Below are positions 3,678-23,896 of a stretch of DNA of 26,108 nt, piece after piece. This DNA comes from a virus: positions 1 to 26,108 of the IMG/VR virus record IMGVR_UViG_3300032605_000121; one strand, 5' to 3'. Under the pieces are notes generated by a model. That model searched no databases. It had not been told where the DNA came from and saw nothing but the letters and a program-made list of their open reading frames with translations. Made by a program: the position numbers and the translations under genes. Position 1 is the stretch's first letter. Each line of letters begins with the position of its first letter.

Positions 3678-3951
3678 CCAAGACCGCAACATCATTCGTA
3701 CTCTCGCACCAGCCGTTGTTGGTGCTGTCGTGACTTACGTGGCAAAGGTGTACGCGAGCCTTGACGCAACGGAACAGGCAATCGTGTTCCCTGTCGCTAC
3801 GACTTCTTACTACACCGTAATCCGTTTCCTCGAAGAGAAGTTCCCGAAGGCTTCGTGGTTGCTCGGATGCTTACCAGTAAAGGCTGCTGATGAGACCCTT
3901 GCAACGCCAGAGGTATCTGTTCCCACTGCTTCCGAAGAGCCAGCGAAATAA
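3664..3951 (+). CDS. Holin-like membrane protein
   Basis: 95 residues. An N-terminal hydrophobic segment (APAVVGAVVTYVAKVYASL, about 14-33) is followed by a second, weaker one (IVFPVATTSYYTVIRF), then the segment RFLEEKFPKASWLLG typical of small actinophage membrane proteins annotated as holins. The hydrophilic tail is rich in Pro, Glu and Ser. It sits directly before a cell-wall-type hydrolase, the usual holin-endolysin order. No good ribosome-binding site is visible, and coupling to the short overlapping upstream ORF is possible. Pore function is inferred. Confidence 0.7.
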   Translation: MNLTNQDRNIIRTLAPAVVGAVVTYVAKVYASLDATEQAIVFPVATTSYYTVIRFLEEKFPKASWLLGCLPVKAADETLATPEVSVPTASEEPAK

Positions 3952-3960
3952 GTTACGTTC

Positions 3961-4458
3961 GTGGAGGCGCAGGTTGGTGACCTGGTTTTCGCGCACACGG
4001 ACGGAGTAATCGGTAAGGCTATTCGTTTTGGTGAACGACTTCGTTGGAGGAAAGGTTCCTACTGGAACCACGTCGCGATAGTAAGCAGGATAGAAGACGG
4101 AATCGCTTACGTCATACAAGCGGAACCTTCCGGCGTAACTGATGACAAGTCATTAAGTAGCCTCGGAGAATACTTCCTCGTCGAATGTCCGGTCACCAAG
4201 ACCGCTCAAGTAATTGACTTCGCGCGCGCGCAGGTAGGTTCGCATTACGGATTCTGGTCAATCCTTTCCTGCGTCTTCGACATCGTTACATGGGATTGGG
4301 TTCCTTCCATCCGTCGCGACGATACGTGGATATGCAGTGCGCTCGTCGCTGAAGCGTTACGTTACGGAGGCTGGCTCCACGACTGGGGTGACATCTACAC
4401 CGTTACTCCGGCTCAACTCTTCCAAGCATTGGTCATGGACTTCGGCCCGATGTGCTAA
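3961..4458 (+). CDS. YiiX/NlpC-P60-like papain-fold hydrolase, candidate endolysin
   Basis: 165 residues from a GTG start. The order of residues is that of the circularly permuted NlpC/P60 (YiiX/YebB) group: GDLVFAHTDG at the N-terminus, His37 in WNHVAIV, an acidic residue in VIQAEPSG (E55), and the probable nucleophile Cys125 in DTWICSALVAEALRYGG near the C-terminus. Members cleave amide or ester bonds, often in peptidoglycan or lipids. It lies between the holin-like gene and a terminator, so it is the best endolysin candidate here, though it has no wall-binding domain and no signal peptide. Absence of a clear Shine-Dalgarno makes the GTG start less certain. Confidence 0.75.
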   Translation: MEAQVGDLVFAHTDGVIGKAIRFGERLRWRKGSYWNHVAIVSRIEDGIAYVIQAEPSGVTDDKSLSSLGEYFLVECPVTKTAQVIDFARAQVGSHYGFWSILSCVFDIVTWDWVPSIRRDDTWICSALVAEALRYGGWLHDWGDIYTVTPAQLFQALVMDFGPMC

Positions 4459-4497
4459 TCTGTTTTCAGTTGCGACCCCATCTTCGCAACCTCCACG

Positions 4498-4536
4498 GAA
4501 AGCCTCCTTACGTTTGAAACGCGTAGGGAGGCTTTC
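4498..4536 (+). terminator. Strong intrinsic terminator after lysis block
   Basis: A 15-bp stem (4498-4512 with 4522-4536, one T-G wobble) surrounds a 9-nt loop; the outer part is GAAAGCCTCC/GGAGGCTTTC. T-rich DNA (CTGCTTTGTATTTC) follows. It separates the hydrolase gene from the first early promoter at 4600 and so insulates late-type from early transcription. Confidence 0.85.
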
Positions 4537-4599
4537 TGCTTTGTATTTCACCTGATAGAGAACGTTAAAAAAAGTTTCCAAAATATTCGTAAAAATGAC

Positions 4600-4628
4600 T
4601 TGACCGGCGAGCGGTCACGGTGTAGACT
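4600..4628 (+). promoter_or_regulatory. Early promoter P1 with operator-like inverted repeat
   Basis: TTGACC (4600-4605), a 17-bp spacer, then TAGACT (4623-4628). TGACCG (4601-4606) and CGGTCA (4612-4617) form a perfect inverted repeat with a GCGAG centre, overlapping the -35 box. A-rich tracts with AAAATATTCGTAAAAATGA lie directly upstream, like an UP element. The same module occurs at 9361 and 14520. A repressor or activator bound to the repeat would control the promoter. Confidence 0.85.
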
Positions 4629-4633
4629 GTTCT

Positions 4634-4662
4634 TGTTCCGGTGAAGTGCAGTAATCGGTTCA
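4634..4662 (+). ncRNA. 5'-leader stem-loop, copy 1
   Basis: Arms TGTTCCG (4634-4640) and CGGTTCA (4656-4662) pair around the 15-nt loop GTGAAGTGCAGTAAT, with two U-U mismatches inside the stem. It begins 5 bases after the -10 box, so it would form the extreme 5' end of the transcript. The AGGAGG ribosome-binding site starts in the last base of the stem. The loop is conserved at 9403 and 14561. Confidence 0.65.
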
Positions 4663-4675
4663 GGAGGAAGTGAAG

Positions 4676-4834
4676 ATGGCTGATGTGAAGATGACTGAAG
4701 AGCAGTACGAAGAAATGCTCTCAACCCTCGAAGGCAGGGCTGAGTTGGCTGGCCGTACGGTGAAGCAGCAAGCGAAATACGAGTTGGCAATGCTGAAGGC
4801 TCGTCGCACCTTGATGCGTGGAGGTCGCAACTAA
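4676..4834 (+). CDS. Small charged protein, first gene of early unit 1
   Basis: 52 residues. AGGAGG followed by an 8-base spacer precedes the ATG, an optimal site. The sequence is mainly helical and charged (EEQYEEMLSTLEGRAELAGR...ELAMLKARRTLMR), with no membrane segment, Cys pair or known motif. The stop overlaps the next start (TAATG). As the first gene after a strong early promoter it may act soon after infection, for example on a host target, but nothing in the sequence proves this. Confidence 0.75.
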   Translation: MADVKMTEEQYEEMLSTLEGRAELAGRTVKQQAKYELAMLKARRTLMRGGRN

Positions 4835-4971
4835 TGGAGCGCGTAACTATCTCAACGGTTGAACTAACCGCTTTCTATGCGGAACTCGACTCGCTCAACG
4901 GTGCCGAGCGCACCAACCGTTCATTCGAAATTGCCGAGCGTATCGCTCAATTAATCAAGGAGGGGAAGTAA
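4834..4971 (+). CDS. Small hypothetical early protein
   Basis: 45 residues, joined to its neighbours by TAATG overlaps at both ends, so it is translated by coupling within early unit 1. The composition is helical and charged (TVELTAFYAELDSLNGAERTNRSFEIAERIAQLIKEG), consistent with a small helical bundle or adaptor. I recognise no family. GGAG lies about 12 bases before the start, inside the end of the preceding gene. Confidence 0.7.
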   Translation: MERVTISTVELTAFYAELDSLNGAERTNRSFEIAERIAQLIKEGK

Positions 4972-15175: not shown

Positions 15176-15658
15176 ATGACCTGCGTCGTGGCCCTCGTAA
15201 CTCAAGGAGGCTCTTACATCGGGAGCGACTCCATCACAGTTGAGGAGTCAGGACTGTACGGATTGGCTCTTTCGCCAAAGGTCGCTCGGTTCAAGAATAC
15301 GCTGGTCGGGTTCGCTGGCTCGTGGAAGGTAGGTCAAGAAGCGTTCCGCCTACTTTCCACGATGGCCAACCCGTTGCCGGAACTGTTCATTAAGCGGTTC
15401 AAGACGGAATACAACAACTGGGCAATCTTGATGGTGAGCGAAGGAAGAGTGTACGAAGTCAATGAGGATATGGCGATTGTTGAAGTCCGGCCTTCGAAGG
15501 AAGGAACCTACGCTTCCATCGGCACCGGCGCAGCAGTCGCTCTCGGCTCCCTTTACACCGACCACATAGACAAGTCCAGCGTCATGACAGCGTTACGCGC
15601 AGCCGAAGCACACGTTGCTTCTGTGAGGCGACCCTTCACCGTTCTAGAGATACAATAA
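15176..15658 (+). CDS. Proteasome/HslV-like Ntn hydrolase
   Basis: 160 residues. MTCVVALV, YIGSDSITV, SPKVARF, LVGFAGSWKVGQ and IGTGAAVALGSLY follow the order of proteasome beta-type Ntn hydrolases, and VRRPFTVLEI ends the protein as in related phage proteins. Removal of Met1 would expose Thr; with it as residue 1, Asp17 (GSD) and Lys34 (PKV) line up with the proteasome Thr1/Asp17/Lys33 triad. Such enzymes cleave peptide or amide bonds, usually in rings. No unfoldase gene is visible nearby. Substrate unknown: host protein turnover or a capsid-related cleavage are possible. Confidence 0.82.
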   Translation: MTCVVALVTQGGSYIGSDSITVEESGLYGLALSPKVARFKNTLVGFAGSWKVGQEAFRLLSTMANPLPELFIKRFKTEYNNWAILMVSEGRVYEVNEDMAIVEVRPSKEGTYASIGTGAAVALGSLYTDHIDKSSVMTALRAAEAHVASVRRPFTVLEIQ

Positions 15659-15691: not shown

Positions 15692-15694
15692 ATG
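15692..15694 (+). promoter_or_regulatory. Double ATG start of ParB-like gene
   Basis: ATG 15692 is followed directly by ATG 15695. GAAGAAGGGG ends right before the first, so the second gives slightly better spacing. The difference is one Met and does not affect the domain. Confidence 0.4.
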
Positions 15695-16294
15695 ATGCTA
15701 GACATCCAGAACGTACAACTCGGAACACTCATACCGCACCCTAAAAATGTGCGACAAGGAGACATCGGCGCAATCGCTGAGAGTCTTCGTATCCATGGTC
15801 AGTACCGACCAATCGTCGTGCAGAAGTCCACGAACTACATCCTCGCCGGTAACCACACGTGGAAGGCAGCGCGCTCTCTCGGGTGGAACAACATTGCCGT
15901 TACGTTCATTGACGTGGACGACGAGCAAGCAGCGAGGATACTGCTCGTGGACAACCGTGCCAACGACCTGGCAACTTACGACGATGAGAGTCTCGCGAAA
16001 CTACTGAAGGAACTCGCTCACACGGAAGCGTCTCTTGAAGGTACCGGATTCGATGGCGACGACCTCGATGACCTGCTGTTCAGATTAGAGGGCTCATCAG
16101 GAACATTGAACGCTGGCGTTAGTGCGACCGAACGTCTTGAAGCATTTGAGGCTCGCGGAATTCGCTCCGTTGTTCTTCCATTCCCAGAAGAGCAGTACGG
16201 CGAGATGATTGAACTGCTTCAGAAATTGCGTAACGTAACCGGAGTAGACAACAACAGCGACGCGGTATTCGGCTTCCTTCAAGAGAACCTATGA
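15692..16294 (+). CDS. ParB-like nuclease-domain protein
   Basis: 200 residues. The N-terminal ParB/Srx-type domain (about 1-100) shows IPHPKNVRQGDIGAIAESLRIHGQYRPIVV, then YILAGNHTWKAARSLGW and DDEQAARILLVDNRAND. The AGNHTWKAA motif (versus GERRxRA in true ParB) is typical of phage ParB-like proteins found with terminase or DNA-modification genes. The domain can bind CTP and DNA. The C-terminal half has no known motif. Its stop overlaps the dioxygenase start by 4 bases, tying it to the modification cassette; in TET/JBP phage cassettes ParB-like proteins are common partners. Confidence 0.88.
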   Translation: MMLDIQNVQLGTLIPHPKNVRQGDIGAIAESLRIHGQYRPIVVQKSTNYILAGNHTWKAARSLGWNNIAVTFIDVDDEQAARILLVDNRANDLATYDDESLAKLLKELAHTEASLEGTGFDGDDLDDLLFRLEGSSGTLNAGVSATERLEAFEARGIRSVVLPFPEEQYGEMIELLQKLRNVTGVDNNSDAVFGFLQENL

Positions 16295-17100
16295 GAATCA
16301 TTGAAGTCACCAAGCACGATTGGGAACGTCGTGACCGTACTCACAAAGCGCCGGAGATGGTTGGCGTGGATGAAGCGGTGAAACTCATTGACGCGGATAC
16401 CGGCGTAACCATAGCGTTCCAGCAGTTACTACCGGAGAGCGCGCAGGAGTTGAAGCGGAGACTCACGCGCTACTTACGCTTTGAGGTTAAGTACGACAGC
16501 GCGAAATCAAAGACCGGGGCAGCACGTTTGTCAGGTATGAACTACGAGAGCCGTGTGTTCGGGTATACCGCTCCTCAACCACTGCGACGTCGCTATGGCG
16601 TATCTGACGCGTCCTTCAACGTTAAAGAGCCGGAGGCCTTCCGCTTACTGGAGGAGTTCACCAAGATTGCCTGGGATACGTTCTGTGAGGCTGCACCGGA
16701 GAAGGCAGAAGAACACCTGGCTCATACGACAGAAGTTCATTCCGACTGGCGCATCGCTGGCGCACCGTTCACTTCAGGCATCATCAATAACACTGCCGCA
16801 CTTCCGTACCACAAAGACTCCATGAACATTAAGGGAACGTGGAACAACATGCTCGGAATAAAAGGAGGCGTAACCGGAGGCGGATTGCACTTACCTGAGT
16901 ACGACGTTTGCTTCGGAATCCCTGATGGGAGCATCTCTGGGTTCGACGGACAAGCAGCGTGGCACGGAGTAACGCCACTCGTGAAGAAGCACAACGACTC
17001 CTACCGATTCACAATCGTTTGGTACACGAAGGCAGGAATCGTCGGCCGAGGTTCAAGGGAAGAGGAAGTCATGGCAGCGAAGTTGCGAGCCACCAAGTAA
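16291..17100 (+). CDS. TET/JBP-like 2-oxoglutarate/Fe(II) dioxygenase
   Basis: 269 residues. The C-terminal double-stranded beta-helix has the metal triad H174-x-D176 (LPYHKDSMN) and H225 (QAAWHGVTPL), with R239 (SYRFTIVWYT) placed to bind 2-oxoglutarate. The segment NMLGIKGGVTGGGLHLPEYDVCFGIPDGSISGFDGQ resembles TET/JBP enzymes of phages. These oxidise the 5-methyl group of 5-methylcytosine (TET) or thymine (JBP) in DNA. ParB-like upstream and two glycosyltransferase-like genes downstream form the usual base-hypermodification neighbourhood. Which base is oxidised cannot be read from sequence; no DNA methyltransferase lies in the window. Another small-molecule or protein hydroxylase is the alternative. 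Confidence 0.78.
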   Translation: MRIIEVTKHDWERRDRTHKAPEMVGVDEAVKLIDADTGVTIAFQQLLPESAQELKRRLTRYLRFEVKYDSAKSKTGAARLSGMNYESRVFGYTAPQPLRRRYGVSDASFNVKEPEAFRLLEEFTKIAWDTFCEAAPEKAEEHLAHTTEVHSDWRIAGAPFTSGIINNTAALPYHKDSMNIKGTWNNMLGIKGGVTGGGLHLPEYDVCFGIPDGSISGFDGQAAWHGVTPLVKKHNDSYRFTIVWYTKAGIVGRGSREEEVMAAKLRATK

Positions 17101-17102
17101 TC

Positions 17103-18002
17103 ATGCGAATCGGATACCGCCGATTGGTGGATGTTAAAGGCTGGCCTGAAACACGCAACGCCATCCTTTCTGCGCTGATTGAGCGTGGTCACGAAATCAT
17201 CCTCTTGAGCCAACTTTCGGAAGGAACTTATCCGGACTCCTGTTTAACGGAGGGCGAATACGACATCTTGATGCTTGAGTTCGGTAGCGCAAATACGCTC
17301 ATGTTCGCCAAAGCGTGGGAAGCCAGCCTGAAGTTAGTGAAAGAACACAAAGGCCCAATCATCTACATAAACGATGACCCCGACCTTCATTGGTCAAAAT
17401 CACAAAGCGAAAAGTTGTTCCAAGATGAGGACTGGTCACGTTGGACTTTCGCATTTAACGCCATCGACCTATCCGCTGTCCGGAAGATGTTTCACATCCC
17501 AACAGAAGCGAAGGTAGTGGAGTTCCCAATGAAGTCTCTGTTCAAACGACTTCCTTTCGCTGACGGCGAGATAGACAAAGCCATCTATTACGGCAAACCG
17601 AAAGCAAGGGAAAAGATGATTCAGGCTTTCTACACAACCAAACGCCTCGCCATCGCCGGAGTTCAAAAGCAATACGAGCCGTTGGGCCTTTCAGTCCTGC
17701 CGGTTCCGGAGTTCAATAACCGAGGCTTCTTGTATCGCCAGTATTGGGCTTCGCTGGCTTTATTCGACAGCCGTCACGCCAAAATAGGATTTCGCACCGG
17801 CAGGGCCTACCATTCGGTCCTAAACGGCGTTCCTGCGCTTGCACCAGTGGGCAATGAAGGGTTGGGTTGGGTTAACCAGTTGCGAGGCTTAGAGGACTTT
17901 CTAGGCTTCTTTGATGAGAGCAGGGAATACCGCAGAGCGTTATTGGAGCAGCAGCAAAGAGATGCTTTCCCAGACGTTGATTGGGAGTCGTTAAGCCTGT
18001 GA
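17103..18002 (+). CDS. GT-B-like glycosyltransferase (putative)
   Basis: 299 residues from ATG 17103, 2 bases after the dioxygenase stop; the frame's extension to 16959 lies inside the dioxygenase gene. The N-terminus has a Rossmann-like pattern (GYRRLVDVKGWPETRNAILSALIERGHEIILLSQL). The C-terminal half holds KIGFRTGRAYHSVLNGVPALAPVGNEGLGWV, like the donor-binding region of GT-B enzymes, followed by a terminal helix. If active it would add a sugar to the hydroxymethyl base made by the dioxygenase. The lack of a clear E-x7-E pair keeps this tentative. Confidence 0.6.
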   Translation: MRIGYRRLVDVKGWPETRNAILSALIERGHEIILLSQLSEGTYPDSCLTEGEYDILMLEFGSANTLMFAKAWEASLKLVKEHKGPIIYINDDPDLHWSKSQSEKLFQDEDWSRWTFAFNAIDLSAVRKMFHIPTEAKVVEFPMKSLFKRLPFADGEIDKAIYYGKPKAREKMIQAFYTTKRLAIAGVQKQYEPLGLSVLPVPEFNNRGFLYRQYWASLALFDSRHAKIGFRTGRAYHSVLNGVPALAPVGNEGLGWVNQLRGLEDFLGFFDESREYRRALLEQQQRDAFPDVDWESLSL

Positions 18003-18391
18003 TTGGTTACGACCTAGATGGAGTTCTGGCCTCGGAGCCAAAAGACAAAGTCGCTTCGGCTAAATGGTTCGCCAATTGCGAGCCGTTGCTTCTGCCGACT
18101 GAACCGTTCATTGCGATTACCGCTCGGCGTAGTACCAAAGCCAACAAACAGGCAACATACGCTTGGCTTCACAAACATTACGCAGATTTGTGCCAAGGTG
18201 TAGCGATGATGGACTTCGTTGGAAACGTCAAAGACATTATGGAATACAAGGCCAGCGTAGTTCAATACTACAAACTGACGGATTACACAGACAACAACCT
18301 CAACTGGCTAAACGGAATGAAGCCTCTATGCGAAGCGAGACTTTGGCATTGGCGCAAGGGAATGGAAAGTCCTGTGTTATTGGAGAGGTGA
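17999..18391 (+). CDS. HAD-like hydrolase in the modification cassette
   Basis: 130 residues from GTG 17999, overlapping the preceding stop (GTGA). Motif I is GYDLDGVLA (D5 nucleophile, D7), motif II the Thr in AITARRS, then candidate Lys in YKASVVQYYKL and an acidic TDYTDNN, in the order of HAD phosphatases. It is short and has little cap domain. It could dephosphorylate a sugar-nucleotide or nucleotide by-product, or be a polynucleotide-type phosphatase. The substrate is unknown. Confidence 0.68.
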   Translation: MIGYDLDGVLASEPKDKVASAKWFANCEPLLLPTEPFIAITARRSTKANKQATYAWLHKHYADLCQGVAMMDFVGNVKDIMEYKASVVQYYKLTDYTDNNLNWLNGMKPLCEARLWHWRKGMESPVLLER

Positions 18392-18411
18392 GGATTGTGG
18401 ATTCGCTATTA

Positions 18412-18425
18412 TCGTTAAATAACGA
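18412..18425. promoter_or_regulatory. 14-bp palindrome in intergenic gap
   Basis: TCGTTA-AA-TAACGA lies in the 72-bp gap before the glycosyltransferase gene, the only sizeable gap in the modification cassette. The 2-base centre is too small for a good RNA loop, so a protein-binding site is more likely than a hairpin. No convincing promoter boxes adjoin it. Confidence 0.35.
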
Positions 18426-18463
18426 GCAAGGCCATTAACCAAATAATTTCAGGGGAGAACGTT

Positions 18464-19273
18464 ATGAGAGTATTCGTATTCACTTACGACCGATTCGACA
18501 GCATTACAACTTCAGGACTACTTGAGGCTGAGGGCATCGACCACATCGTGTTATGCCACACGGAAGAGCAGCGACAAGGATTCATAGACGGCGGAAGGGT
18601 CAATCCTGAACGGATAATCGTCACAAATCAGCCGAAGGGTCTGGCGTACAACAGAAATTATGCGCTGGAAATGATGGAAGAAGGCGAATGGGCGATGTTC
18701 CTCGTGGACGACCTAAAGGACGTAACCGAACTTCGTAACTATGACCGAGCCACATCTCCGTTGCCAATCACGATGGCGAATCAAAAGATGTATAAAGAAC
18801 GCTTTGACACACCACTCACGATGGAAAAGTTCCTGATGAGAGCGGAGGAGTTGTCCAAAGTCTGTGACCGGAATAACTGCTACCTCGGCGGATGGGCTGG
18901 AATCGACAACCCAATCTTCAGATGCGACCACTACAAGACCAACGTTCTTGCCGATGGACGAGCCTGGATTGTCAAGAAATCACACTTACGCTTCGATGAA
19001 GGAGCGCAGATGATTGATGACCTCTGCTGGACGGCTCAAAACATAAAGGAGTTCGGCATCGTCATCGTGGACTTATGGATTCTCCCTGACTGCCGTCGTT
19101 ACTCCAAAGGTGGCTTCGGAAGCATTGAAGACCGTATGGAGCAGAAGATACGTGAAGCCGGACACCTTGTCCGCACATACCCAGAGTTCATTCAGGTTAA
19201 AGAGAAGACCGGATGGGTCTATGGAGCGCACGTCGTGCTTCGTCAGATGAGAAACAAACCCAAGATACGCTAG
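18464..19273 (+). CDS. TET-associated-type glycosyltransferase (GT-A-like)
   Basis: 269 residues; AGGGGAG precedes the ATG. The N-terminal half follows a GT-A pattern: VFVFTYDRFDSITTSGLLEAEGIDHIVLCHTEEQ, then GLAYNRNYAL (N63-R64-N65) and MFLVDDLKDVTEL, where D82-D83 fits the metal-binding DxD position. The [AY]-x-x-RN and DD motifs are those of TET-associated glycosyltransferases (TAGT) of phage hypermodification cassettes. It would glycosylate an oxidised base in phage DNA. The next gene, the small terminase, starts 4 bases later, so modification and packaging may be co-transcribed. Confidence 0.75.
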   Translation: MRVFVFTYDRFDSITTSGLLEAEGIDHIVLCHTEEQRQGFIDGGRVNPERIIVTNQPKGLAYNRNYALEMMEEGEWAMFLVDDLKDVTELRNYDRATSPLPITMANQKMYKERFDTPLTMEKFLMRAEELSKVCDRNNCYLGGWAGIDNPIFRCDHYKTNVLADGRAWIVKKSHLRFDEGAQMIDDLCWTAQNIKEFGIVIVDLWILPDCRRYSKGGFGSIEDRMEQKIREAGHLVRTYPEFIQVKEKTGWVYGAHVVLRQMRNKPKIR

Positions 19274-19277
19274 AACT

Positions 19278-19748
19278 ATGGCGAATAGAAATCCAGACCC
19301 CGAACTGCTAGAAAAGGAACGTCAAGTTCTTGAACTACGCAGAGCCGGTGCGACCTATGACGAGATTGCCAGAGCGACTGGATACGCCACTCCACAAGGC
19401 GCATACCTAGCCTACGGCCGTGCGCTCAAGAGAACGCTGACGAACGCCGGTTCTGAGGAACTACGTGAGATGGAACTCGACAGGCTCGACAGACTCCAAC
19501 GAGCAGTCTGGCCAAAGGCACTCAACGGCGAGTATCCTGCTGTGGACAGAGTGTTGAAAATAATGAACCAACGAGCGCAGTATCTTGGTTTGTACGCTCC
19601 GACGAAGATGCAGGTGGAGGCCACCGTCTATGACACAGGAACAATCGAGTCCGAAGTCGCCCGACTCCGACTCATCCTTGAGAACCATAGCAGCGTCACG
19701 GATTCTTTGGGAGAAGGAACTAGCACGGCCGGAGCAATTACCGAGTGA
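19278..19748 (+). CDS. terS: Terminase small subunit
   Basis: 156 residues. The N-terminal HTH (LELRRAGATYDEIARATGYATPQGAYLAYGRALKR) is followed by ELREMELDRLDRLQRAVWPKALNGEYPAVDRVLKIMNQRAQYLGLYAP, the helical oligomerisation region common in actinophage small terminases. It recognises phage DNA and loads the large subunit. The gene begins right after the glycosyltransferase and its 3' end overlaps the large-subunit frame by 119 bases. Confidence 0.88.
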   Translation: MANRNPDPELLEKERQVLELRRAGATYDEIARATGYATPQGAYLAYGRALKRTLTNAGSEELREMELDRLDRLQRAVWPKALNGEYPAVDRVLKIMNQRAQYLGLYAPTKMQVEATVYDTGTIESEVARLRLILENHSSVTDSLGEGTSTAGAITE

Positions 19749-20994
19749 AGAGAAAGATTGGAACGTTTATCTGTATCTTGCTGGTCGTGGTGCAGGTAAG
19801 ACGCGCACTGCTGCGGAATGGGTTGCTTGGCAGTCCGTTAGATTTCCTAATACCAGGTGGGCGGTTGTGGCAGCAACGTTCGGTGACGTACGCGACACCT
19901 GCGCCGAAGGTGAGTCGGGTCTTGTAAACATTCTCAGACGCTACGGCGTACTGAAGCATTACAACCGTTCAATGGGTGAGATGAAACTCACCAACGGTTC
20001 GCTCATAAAGATGTTCTCCGCTGACGAGCCAGACCGTTTACGTGGCCCTCAGTTTCACGGAGCCTGGTGCGACGAGTTGGCAGCCTGGCGTTACCCGGAG
20101 ACGTACGAACAGTTGCAGTTCACGCTCCGTCTTGGTGACAATCCGCAGACCATCATTACTACAACGCCTCAGCCGAAGAAACTGATTAAAGAACTTGTCG
20201 CCAACGAGAGGGGAACGGTACGCGTAGTACGTGGTTCCACGTTCGACAACGCAGCAAACCTGCCATCAGCAGCACTTGACCAACTCCGCGCCAGATACGA
20301 AGGAACTCGCCTTGGTCGTCAGGAACTTTACGCGGAAGTGTTGGAAGATACTCCCGGCGCTCTATGGACAATGGACAGCATTGACGCTACGCGAGTCAAG
20401 CAACTACCGGACATGGTGCGCGTCGTTGTAGCGATTGACCCAGCAGCAACCAGTAACGAGATGTCGGACGAGACAGGAATCGTTGTTGTCGGGAAAGGAG
20501 TGGACGGACGCGGTTACGTGCTCGCTGACCGGAGTTGTCGCTTGTCTCCTGCTGGATGGGCGCGTCGAGCGATTGAGGCTTACGACGAGTTTGAGGCCAG
20601 CCGTATCATCGGTGAAACGAACATGGGCGGAGAGATGATTGAAACCATCATCCACCAGATACGCGGAAACATTCCGTATCGTGGTGTAGTAGCCAAGCGC
20701 GGAAAGGTACTGCGCGCCGAACCAGTCGCTGCGCTCTACGAGCAGGGAAGGATTAGCCATCATGGAACGTTCCCTGAGTTGGAAGAGCAGATGACGACAT
20801 GGGTCGCAGACCAGTCCGACTACTCACCCGACAGATTGGACGCGCTCGTTCATGGCTTCGCTTCATTGGACATTGGTATTGGTGCTTCCGCCGACCGCTA
20901 CTTCAACGCCATCGCTCCGTTGTGTCAGAAGTGCGACATGCCTAACGCTGAAGGCCTTTCGCTTTGCTCGCACTGCGGTTCAACACTACAATAA
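19630..20994 (+). CDS. terL: Terminase large subunit with C-terminal zinc ribbon
   Basis: 454 residues if started at ATG 19630; TTG 19585 or TTG 19678 are alternatives. ATPase: Walker A AGRGAGKTRT (about 51-60), Walker B-like GAWCDELAAW (about 145-153), coupling motif TTTPQPKK. RNase H-like nuclease: VVVAIDPAATSNEMSDETGIVVVG (about 262-286), an ETNMGGEM segment, and a later PDRLDALVHG with a further acidic residue. It pumps DNA into the prohead and cuts concatemers. Oddly the last residues form C432-x2-C435-x10-C446-x2-C449, a zinc ribbon absent from most TerL proteins. Confidence 0.95.
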   Translation: MTQEQSSPKSPDSDSSLRTIAASRILWEKELARPEQLPSEEKDWNVYLYLAGRGAGKTRTAAEWVAWQSVRFPNTRWAVVAATFGDVRDTCAEGESGLVNILRRYGVLKHYNRSMGEMKLTNGSLIKMFSADEPDRLRGPQFHGAWCDELAAWRYPETYEQLQFTLRLGDNPQTIITTTPQPKKLIKELVANERGTVRVVRGSTFDNAANLPSAALDQLRARYEGTRLGRQELYAEVLEDTPGALWTMDSIDATRVKQLPDMVRVVVAIDPAATSNEMSDETGIVVVGKGVDGRGYVLADRSCRLSPAGWARRAIEAYDEFEASRIIGETNMGGEMIETIIHQIRGNIPYRGVVAKRGKVLRAEPVAALYEQGRISHHGTFPELEEQMTTWVADQSDYSPDRLDALVHGFASLDIGIGASADRYFNAIAPLCQKCDMPNAEGLSLCSHCGSTLQ

Positions 20995-21016: not shown

Positions 21017-23896
21017 ATGGCTCTATTCAGTCGCAAAAAGAACGAAGACGCTCTCGTTAAGAGAATCGCCGAAGAGGTAATCAAGGCGAGCGGAAACAAC
21101 ATGGGAATGACACCTTACGGTGGAACCGGATACGCGACTACTTCAGCAGCAATGCCTTCACAGATGATGCAGTCTCCCGGCAGTGGTGGACAAGGACTGC
21201 TTCAGTCACCAGGAACCCAAGCCAATCCGCTTCCGCGCTTCTCCTACGATTTCGGGGCTCAGTTAGGCCCATCAGCACCGTTCCTACCTGCTCCCTTAGA
21301 CCCCGTATTTGACGATTCTGGACGTGCGCTTCCTCGTTTGTGGGAATACCCCGTCGCGTGGAACCTTGACCTCAATATGCAGTCAACACCGTGGACGGTA
21401 CTGCGTTCAATGGCTGACCAGATTGACATCATCCACCGTTGCATTGAAATCAAAATTTCTGAAATCACCAAGATGGAATGGTCGTTCGACGTAGAGGACG
21501 CAACCATCTTCCAGATGATGTCTGAGCAGAACGTCTCTCACGCTAAAGCAGCCAAGATTGCTCGCGAACTGTACGACGAGAAGATTGTTGAACTCCGAAA
21601 GTTCTGGGAGAACCCGTACCCAACACTCGGACGTACGTTCACTGAGTGGATGACTGAGTTCCTATGGCAACACTTCGTGTTCGACGGAACGCCGGTATAT
21701 CCTCGCTACAATTTGGGTAAGAACGTAATCGGCTTTGAAATCATTGACGCTCCTACCATCAAGGTTCTCCTGGACAATCGTGGCGCTGTTCCTGCTCCAC
21801 CGGCTCCTGCATACCAACAGATTCTTTGGGGATTTCCACGAGGCGAGTATCAAAGTTCACCGGAGAGCGACGGAGAGTTCTTCTCGGGAGAAGGTAAGGC
21901 TGGCGAATACATGCGCGACCAGTTGGCCTACTTTGTTCGCAACCGTCGTACGTGGTCACCTTACGGATTTAGTTGTGTAGAAGAAGCAGTTCCTAGCGCC
22001 ACGATTTATTTGGAACGCCAGATGTGGATGAAATCGGAATACTCCAACGGTTCCGCGCCTATGGCTTTCTTCGAGACGGACTCCGACGAAATGGAACCAA
22101 CGCGTCTTGCTGCATGGGAACGCGTGTTCAACGACAAGATGTCCGGTCAGACTGGCGAGCGTCACAAGATGAAAGTGCTTCCACGCGGATTCAAGCCAAC
22201 GTTCGCTCCGACCATTGACGAGCGTTACAAGACGGACTACGACAACTTCCTCATCCTGCGTATCGCCACAATCTTCGGCGTATCGCCATCAACTCTGGGC
22301 ATCATCCCACGTAGCGGTCTTGGTGGAGCAGGTGAGCGTGAAGGTGAAGCACAACAGGCACTCACCACGTCTCAGAAACCATTGGAATCGTTCCTCGTTG
22401 AGACAATCAACACGCTGTCACGCCGGTTCCTCGGAGCGGACAAGAACATCACGTTCCACTTTGACGACGACAACGACAACATCGCCACTCTGAACGCTAA
22501 GTCGACGGCCTACCAGACTTCGCTCTACTCCGGTCAGATGACCATGAACGACGTACGCGGTGAACTCGGTATGCCTCTGTACGACATGCCGGAAGCAGAC
22601 GAACCGTTCATCCTCGGTGCTGGCGGTAGTCCGGTCTTCCTTAAGGGATTGCTGGAAGTCAACGAATCTGGTGAAACAGTAGAACAGAAGGGAACGGAAG
22701 CGACTGATGACGAAATGGATTCTGGGGCCGGAAGTAGCGGTAACGTCAGCGAAGAAAGCAAAGACGCGGAAGGCTCGAAAGGCAAAGGTAGCCAGGGCAA
22801 AGACAGCGAAGGCAAAGGTTCACAGAACGTCGGTGAAAGCAAAGCGTCGTCGTCTGACGTAGATGACGCGGAGAAGTCTGTAAGCAGGGAAGAAATCCGG
22901 GAGTTCTCGCGCTTCGTAAAATCACGACACAAGAACGGCAAGTGGAGGGCGTTTGACTTCGTTACCATTCCGGAAGAAGTTGCTGACAAGTTGAACGAGC
23001 AGGGATACTTCATCGTCAAGGGAGTTACTCCCATGCCGGAAAGCGTTTACGACTGGGCTGCGAGTTATCTGAACAGCGAGATAACTGATACCCCAAAAGG
23101 TTTGCTTACTAAGCGAGCGTTAAGCGACGTTCCTGGAATCAAGCACAAGTTGATGGTGGAGAAACATTACGCTCCCATCATTGAGCAGGCTCTCGCTAAC
23201 AGCATTACCGGAGTTGAAGCAGCGATTAAACAGGCTATGGAGTCTTCCAACAAGGCAGCCGACGACGACCTTTCCGCAGCACGATTAGCCGTTGCTCAGA
23301 ACATCAAGGTGGATACGCTTCCACTACAGAAGTCGCTGGAGCAGATGGCTCTCGACTCAGGGTTCGTTGGAAGTGCTTACGCGGTGAGAGAAATGGGCGA
23401 CGGAGCCTCCCTCGTATCGGACTTGTCGAAGGCATCGGTGAACTTTGACTGGGATTCATGGGAACCTGGCAATCCACTAGCAGCGTCAATGATTACCGAA
23501 GGACGTATGCTCAACGTCCTCAACGGAACGAAAGCAACAGCCAACGGAATCGGTAAAACCACCACTAAGAGAATCACCAACGCAATCGTCAACGGAATCA
23601 GCGCCGGTGACCCAGCGAAGTCAATCGCCAAGGACATCAACGCAATCATCCAAGACCCTCAGCGCGCCATGACCATCGCGGTTACTGAAACGAACTACGC
23701 GTACAACTCAGCAGCAGTAGACCAGTACGCAGCGTCCGGACTTACTCAGTTCGAGTGGTTCGCGTATGACGACGGATTGACGTGCGAAGTGTGCTTAGAT
23801 GAAGAGAGTGCAAATCCTCACGACCTATCCGACGACGTTCCACCGGCTCATCCGAATTGCCGATGCACTGTTCTCGCTGTAATCTCTAGTAACTAA
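21017..23896 (+). CDS. Portal-MuF fusion protein
   Basis: 959 residues, about twice a normal portal. Residues about 100-550 are portal-like: VAWNLDLNMQSTPWTVLRSMADQIDIIHRCIEIKISEITKMEW, a middle wing region, and DYDNFLILRIATIFGVSPSTLGIIPRSGLGGAGEREGEAQQ with the clip/stem. A low-complexity Ser/Gly/Lys/Glu linker (about 560-620) leads to a MuF/SPP1 gp7-like domain ending in TNYAYNSAAVDQY..GLTQFEWFAYDDGLTCEVC...PPAHPNCRC. The portal ring is the DNA gate; MuF domains are minor head proteins inside the capsid. The fusion fixes MuF at 12 copies. The GAGGGATA site precedes the ATG. Confidence 0.93.
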   Translation: MALFSRKKNEDALVKRIAEEVIKASGNNMGMTPYGGTGYATTSAAMPSQMMQSPGSGGQGLLQSPGTQANPLPRFSYDFGAQLGPSAPFLPAPLDPVFDDSGRALPRLWEYPVAWNLDLNMQSTPWTVLRSMADQIDIIHRCIEIKISEITKMEWSFDVEDATIFQMMSEQNVSHAKAAKIARELYDEKIVELRKFWENPYPTLGRTFTEWMTEFLWQHFVFDGTPVYPRYNLGKNVIGFEIIDAPTIKVLLDNRGAVPAPPAPAYQQILWGFPRGEYQSSPESDGEFFSGEGKAGEYMRDQLAYFVRNRRTWSPYGFSCVEEAVPSATIYLERQMWMKSEYSNGSAPMAFFETDSDEMEPTRLAAWERVFNDKMSGQTGERHKMKVLPRGFKPTFAPTIDERYKTDYDNFLILRIATIFGVSPSTLGIIPRSGLGGAGEREGEAQQALTTSQKPLESFLVETINTLSRRFLGADKNITFHFDDDNDNIATLNAKSTAYQTSLYSGQMTMNDVRGELGMPLYDMPEADEPFILGAGGSPVFLKGLLEVNESGETVEQKGTEATDDEMDSGAGSSGNVSEESKDAEGSKGKGSQGKDSEGKGSQNVGESKASSSDVDDAEKSVSREEIREFSRFVKSRHKNGKWRAFDFVTIPEEVADKLNEQGYFIVKGVTPMPESVYDWAASYLNSEITDTPKGLLTKRALSDVPGIKHKLMVEKHYAPIIEQALANSITGVEAAIKQAMESSNKAADDDLSAARLAVAQNIKVDTLPLQKSLEQMALDSGFVGSAYAVREMGDGASLVSDLSKASVNFDWDSWEPGNPLAASMITEGRMLNVLNGTKATANGIGKTTTKRITNAIVNGISAGDPAKSIAKDINAIIQDPQRAMTIAVTETNYAYNSAAVDQYAASGLTQFEWFAYDDGLTCEVCLDEESANPHDLSDDVPPAHPNCRCTVLAVISSN

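Follow-up and report, generated by a model that had tools for sequence, protein, structure and literature searches.

The five genes at 15692-19273 of the DNA analysed here, a 26,108-bp virus record that we call the window, form a real cassette that is very probably a gene set for DNA-base hypermodification. The overall explanation to which we give slightly better than even credence is that the cassette hypermodifies polymerised DNA and that the modified base, most likely thymine, is glycosylated. An earlier note on this DNA had proposed that a cassette next to the terminase, with genes for a TET-type dioxygenase and a TAGT glycosyltransferase among its members, serves hypermodification, and this is upheld by profile matches, invariant catalytic residues, synteny and a structural model of the TAGT. 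The gene coordinates given earlier were correct, and all the cassette genes are found at these positions, followed by the two terminase genes:

15692-16294, + strand: ParB-like protein, 200 aa (PF02195, 1.7e-9; phrog_723, 1.9e-45; synteny with TET)
16291-17100, + strand: TET/JBP-family 2OG-Fe(II) dioxygenase, 269 aa (PF12851, 1.5e-9; TET2 alignment)
17103-18002, + strand: orphan, GT-B-like by eye only, 299 aa (motifs alone)
17981-18391, + strand: orphan HAD-like hydrolase, 136 aa (DLDG, TAR and DYTDN motifs by eye)
18464-19273, + strand: TAGT, GT-A-fold glycosyltransferase, 269 aa (phrog_842, 1.5e-9; fold model)
19278-19748, + strand, context: terminase small subunit, TerS (phrog_645, 1.7e-32; synteny before TerL in relatives)
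19630-20994, + strand, context: terminase large subunit, TerL (PF03237, 1.3e-25; PF17289, 2.1e-16)

That the genes are mostly overlapping, as had been said, is a fair description, since neighbouring genes overlap or adjoin at three of the four junctions within the cassette. The ParB and TET genes overlap by 4 nt, the GT-B-like gene has an in-frame ATG at 17103, 2 nt past the TET stop (17100), and the HAD-like gene, which has a TTG start, overlaps the GT-B-like gene by 22 nt. The TAGT gene has a 72-nt gap 5' of its start and a good Shine-Dalgarno sequence, and 4 nt separate it from TerS. Codon-usage scores likewise speak for the frames as annotated in all the cassette genes. Many viral contigs and also actinophages in culture show the order ParB-TET-(slot)-terminase again, which is therefore not due to chance. 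The adjacency to the terminase, from which modification shortly before packaging had been proposed, is kept in many relatives and is not evidence of when modification would take place; it is synteny alone that favours a pre-packaging timing, and Arthrobacter phage Lilmac1015 does not have its cassette beside a terminase. A WhiB gene in the window (PF02467, 1.1e-14) and the presence of TET homologues in actinophages point to an actinobacterial host for this phage. The family matched by TerS, phrog_645, carries the name RNase E. Immediately 5' of the cassette, at 15176-15658, there is an HslV-like protein (phrog_1040, 1.1e-11) that is kept 5' of ParB in L001, L002 and L013. Elsewhere in the window, Portal and Mu-F-like domains are fused in one 959-aa protein (21017-23896), whereas in L002 the Mu-F part has an ORF of its own, and a 465-aa protein with repeated GSGTATVTG-like units (312-1709) is tail-fibre-like.

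The N-terminal domain of the window ParB matches PF02195 above the cut-off, and its N17, G51, N86 and L99 are invariant in 77 homologues. ParB is a near-constant partner of TET: of the 84 loci that show the upstream side, 73 have the ParB gene directly 5' of TET. The window TET scores 37.7 bits against PF12851, for which the curated cut-off is 34.9, and when the TET profile was compared with the PDB it matched human TET2 (4nm6/5d9y, E 1.5e-5). From the TET2 alignment and conservation in the family, the Fe ligands are H174, D176 and H225, the 2OG-binding residue is R239, and Y245 and the pocket residue N179 are also assigned. We assembled 92 different TET proteins, taken from cultured phages and from viral contigs; the HxD motif is present in all 92, and the third His, the Arg and the Tyr in all 91 that cover those positions. 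The pocket Asn of TET2 is likewise retained. Family and active site being established, the window dioxygenase is predicted to act on a 5-methylpyrimidine in DNA, probably thymine or 5mC. The residue at the position of TET2 H1904 was tried as a substrate marker and rejected: it varies among K, L, R, V, I and A, and it cannot separate substrates because Lys is found both in the window TET and in that of L038, which has a C5-methyltransferase (C5-MT) beside the cassette. RefSeq and PHROGs list actinophage homologues of the window TET, and phrog_6059, under the name 'queuine tRNA-ribosyltransferase', an apparent misannotation. In L016 a second 2OG-Fe(II) oxygenase (3910-4812; PF13640, 6.2e-15) lies between TET and TAGT, which suggests that oxidation goes one step further there.

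The assignment of the TAGT to PF20691 is indirect. The window protein scores 18.1 bits, below the cut-off of 27.5, and its homologues in L035 and L091 pass the cut-off; an iterative profile seeded with these two retrieves the window TAGT at 4.2e-67, and it is through them that it would belong to the family. R10, D82-D83, N149 and D186 are invariant in an alignment of 40 homologues. The AF2 model built from this alignment has a pLDDT of 93.7, and the best PDB match of the model in Foldseek is TarP, a GT-A enzyme (E 2.3e-5, probability 1.00). The model thus predicts a GT-A fold, and glycosylation would be its reaction. TAGT is found near TET in dozens of loci, and in L013, L024 and L033 it comes straight after TET with no GT-B gene and nothing in between, which suggests that TAGT is probably able to start the decoration, working directly on the hydroxymethyl base. 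A pattern scan of bacterial genomes, which is insensitive, gave no TAGT.

The ParB, TET/JBP and TAGT identities given in the earlier note have held, whereas its GT-B and HAD labels are motif readings, which are plausible. The GT-B-like protein had no match in Pfam, PHROG, NCBIfam, the PDB, phages or plasmids, and among viral contigs it was found only in an identical phage, L001. Its AF2 model from the single sequence has a pLDDT of 47.5, and Foldseek with this model gave meaningless aldolase/lyase barrels at a TM of about 0.25. Compared with the four other slot proteins read as GT-B (L029, L032, L044 and L050), it showed no similarity (probability 1.4%). The HAD-like protein has a single, weak family match, phrog_415 (polynucleotide kinase, 0.0065); no match was found in phages, and among the fetched loci it is present only in the identical phage. 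Since the slot varies around the closest relatives of the window in the manner of a recombination point, the GT-B-like and HAD-like pair is, judging from these loci, an insertion particular to this lineage, in a slot whose content can be exchanged. It had been suggested earlier that two glycosyltransferase folds mean a two-step or disaccharide decoration. This is plausible and has a precedent in the TAGT of T6 (PMC13216743), but the GT-B label is from motifs only and near relatives use TAGT without GT-B. As TAGT probably modifies the hydroxymethyl base directly, the extra pair would act additionally or at another position.

What occupies the slot that follows TET and precedes the terminase was compared over 86 loci. 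Of these, 48 have TAGT and neither kinase nor ADDT, 24 have kinase and/or ADDT but no TAGT, 4 have both kinds, 4 have another family read as GT-B, and the remaining 6 have none of these. With profiles built from relatives, no base kinase and no ADDT/aGPT-PPlase gene was found in the window. The clearest exchange is between L031 and L033, which are 96% identical in ParB, 93% in TET, 92% in TerS and 96% in TerL; one has a PF18751 kinase in the slot and the other has TAGT. This swap suggests that the slot kinase and TAGT both act on the TET product. The closest relative of the window TET is in L002 (84%) and that of its TAGT is in L013 (86%), and the slot near the window looks like a recombination point in these sequences; it holds a GP88 gene in L002, nothing in L013, a vWA gene in L014 and the second oxygenase in L016. 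The GP88 gene of L002 (PF17338) occupies the tailoring slot at 4240-4932, and in the window's own phage a GP88 homologue (67% identical) follows the major capsid gene (L011, 9137-9859). Kinases of this kind and pyrophosphorylase-type genes have been linked with thymidine hypermodification (PMC11955845). As a marker for thymine only, ADDT was weakened by L051 and L065, which have kinase and ADDT and also carry a C5-MT. The product of gp3 of Mycobacterium phage Nigel (L004, 1786-2382), which is annotated as the terminase small subunit, matches the P-loop nucleotide kinase PF18751 at 2.9e-72 and is probably a base kinase of the modification cassette.

Whether the phage has its own methylase could be followed over its whole genome. 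Two contigs, L134 and L012, have overlaps of 100% identity with the window. From L134 the sequence runs on into L133 (100% over 2,404 bp), whose final 839 bp are 97.7% identical to L136, and L136 leads back to the window with a 92% match to positions 1-233. The genome thereby closes as a circle of about 40.7 kb, with closing contigs drawn from a population and about 385 bp covered only by the relative L136; L133 has structural and tail genes as read by eye. In the window and the closing contigs, the whole of this genome, there was no match to PF00145 (C5-MT), PF01555 or PF00303, the thymidylate-synthase family that would serve a hydroxymethylated-dUMP route. The earlier view that the base is methylated first therefore finds no phage C5-MT behind it, though the host could supply 5mC. 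C5-MT was also absent from the seven complete actinophage genomes with TET, from the searched records of the window's TET sub-clade (L002, L013, L024-L027, L029-L033) and from 89-kb and 156-kb contigs with TET and TAGT. The PF00145 search does work, as it finds C5-MT in 11 of 115 records, related contigs included. Both arrangements thus occur in the family, and the window phage belongs with those that encode no methylase of their own.

The lack of a phage C5-MT in the closed genome makes thymine likelier than 5mC, and, with neither a methylase nor a thymidylate-synthase-family enzyme, direct oxidation of thymine in DNA would be the simplest route. We therefore favour thymine to 5hmU to glycosyl-5hmU, as in base J, over 5mC to 5hmC, although the records with C5-MT mean that the substrate may yet be 5mC. 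What weakens the thymine reading is that in two of those records C5-MT directly precedes ParB-TET-TAGT, with 17 bp between it and ParB in L015 and 159 bp in L038, and that the T6 TAGT works on glucosyl-hmC (PMC13216743). The same cassette could use 5mC made by a host C5-MT, or by one encoded in the roughly 385 bp or in a population variant, to give glycosylated 5hmC, and we consider this possible though distinctly the less likely case. The retained pocket Asn of TET2, the position of L035, L036 and L038 in the window's wider TET clade and the reported oxidation of 5mC by the phage TETs so far characterised speak for it; the methylase-free genomes and contigs described above speak against it, and dependence on a host methylase would restrict modification to the host's sites. 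It is improbable that TET acts on DNA while the sugars added by TAGT and the GT-B-like protein go to virion proteins or onto the host surface. Some ParB-TET loci do have neither TAGT nor kinase and the GT-B-like protein is an orphan, but most TAGT loci have TAGT directly after TET, TAGT alternates with base kinases in that slot, and the TAGT of T6 acts on DNA (PMC13216743). Slightly less probable still is a dioxygenase that targets a small molecule or a protein with no DNA modification at all. The 2OG-Fe(II) enzymes are diverse and no biochemistry was found for this family member; against this stand the PF12851 score, the TET2 alignment, the near-constant pairing with ParB and the alternating DNA-base tailoring genes.

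For glycosylated thymine, the following sequence of events may be proposed. The TET/JBP enzyme would act on a pyrimidine that is part of DNA, most likely thymine, and hydroxylate its 5-methyl group to give 5-hydroxymethyluracil, and ParB may load or direct TET on the DNA. The TAGT, with its modelled GT-A fold, would then add a sugar on the new hydroxyl to give a base-J-like glycosyl-5hmU. The inserted GT-B-like protein and HAD-like phosphatase might alter this decoration, for example by a second sugar or by phosphate trimming, which is the weakest of the steps. The likely benefit would be resistance to host nucleases. In its fullest form the proposal is one of base-J-type DNA: thymine would be hydroxylated by a ParB-guided TET and glycosylated by TAGT, and a HAD phosphatase and a glycosyltransferase of an unrecognised family would build a second, new decoration. 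In this form it is speculative, and we think it rather unlikely.

Phage TET genes have so far been known mainly as 5mC oxidisers. The closed TET and TAGT genome without a methylase, the same lack in actinophages and the swap turn the choice between thymine and 5mC into a question that cultured phages can answer directly. Were thymine the substrate, the logic of trypanosome base J would extend to phages. No demonstration in a phage of thymine hydroxylation in DNA followed by sugar addition was found; if the base-J-type reading is true, this would be the first prokaryotic DNA thymine hydroxylase feeding glycosylation, as far as we found. New DNA-tailoring enzymes may also be sought in the exchangeable slot. 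The cassette type itself is known, and new here are the way the genes are combined, a closed genome that lacks a methylase, the clean kinase/TAGT swap and the orphan pair.

Among known systems, the phage TETs assayed by Burke et al. 2021 (PNAS e2026742118) reportedly act on 5mC. Those systems are reported to have TET and glycosyltransferases in one cluster like the window but to be defined by a co-occurring C5-MT, which the window phage lacks. T-even phages produce hmC at the nucleotide level. Their two-step glycosylation uses a GT-A TAGT family as in the window, possibly paired here too with a GT-B enzyme; in T6 a GT-B alpha-GT acts first and TAGT then adds the second glucose (PMC13216743). 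The TAGT there works on a base that already carries glucose, whereas relatives of the window use TAGT without any GT-B. For phage TET clusters as a cassette type, PMC11347163 and PMC12730594 cite the work of Burke et al. 2021. In kinetoplastid base J, JBP hydroxylates thymine and glucosylation follows (PMC12730594), which is the same chemistry as proposed for the window, a thymine in DNA being hydroxylated and then given a sugar, although this pathway is eukaryotic and its glucosyltransferase differs from the window TAGT. Mycobacterium phage Nigel, Gordonia phage CaiB, Microbacterium phage Matzah and Rhodococcus phage Tonitrus, for the last of which a thymine hypermodification system has been proposed (PMC11955845), likewise have a ParB-TET pair near the terminase, and their complete genomes, like that of the window phage, are without C5-MT. 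Their TETs, however, are only 30-36% identical to that of the window, and their slot holds a kinase and/or ADDT where the window has the GT-B-like, HAD and TAGT genes. In the cultured Arthrobacter phage Lilmac1015 the cassette is away from the terminase and has no GT-B or HAD gene, unlike the window. A gene annotated as glucosaminyl deacetylase (L005, 8700-9290) follows TET and TAGT there, hinting that its DNA sugar is N-acetylglucosamine. In this phage, which has the order ParB-TET-glycosyltransferase-deacetylase, a TAGT-family gene follows TET and there is no C5-MT, as in the window.
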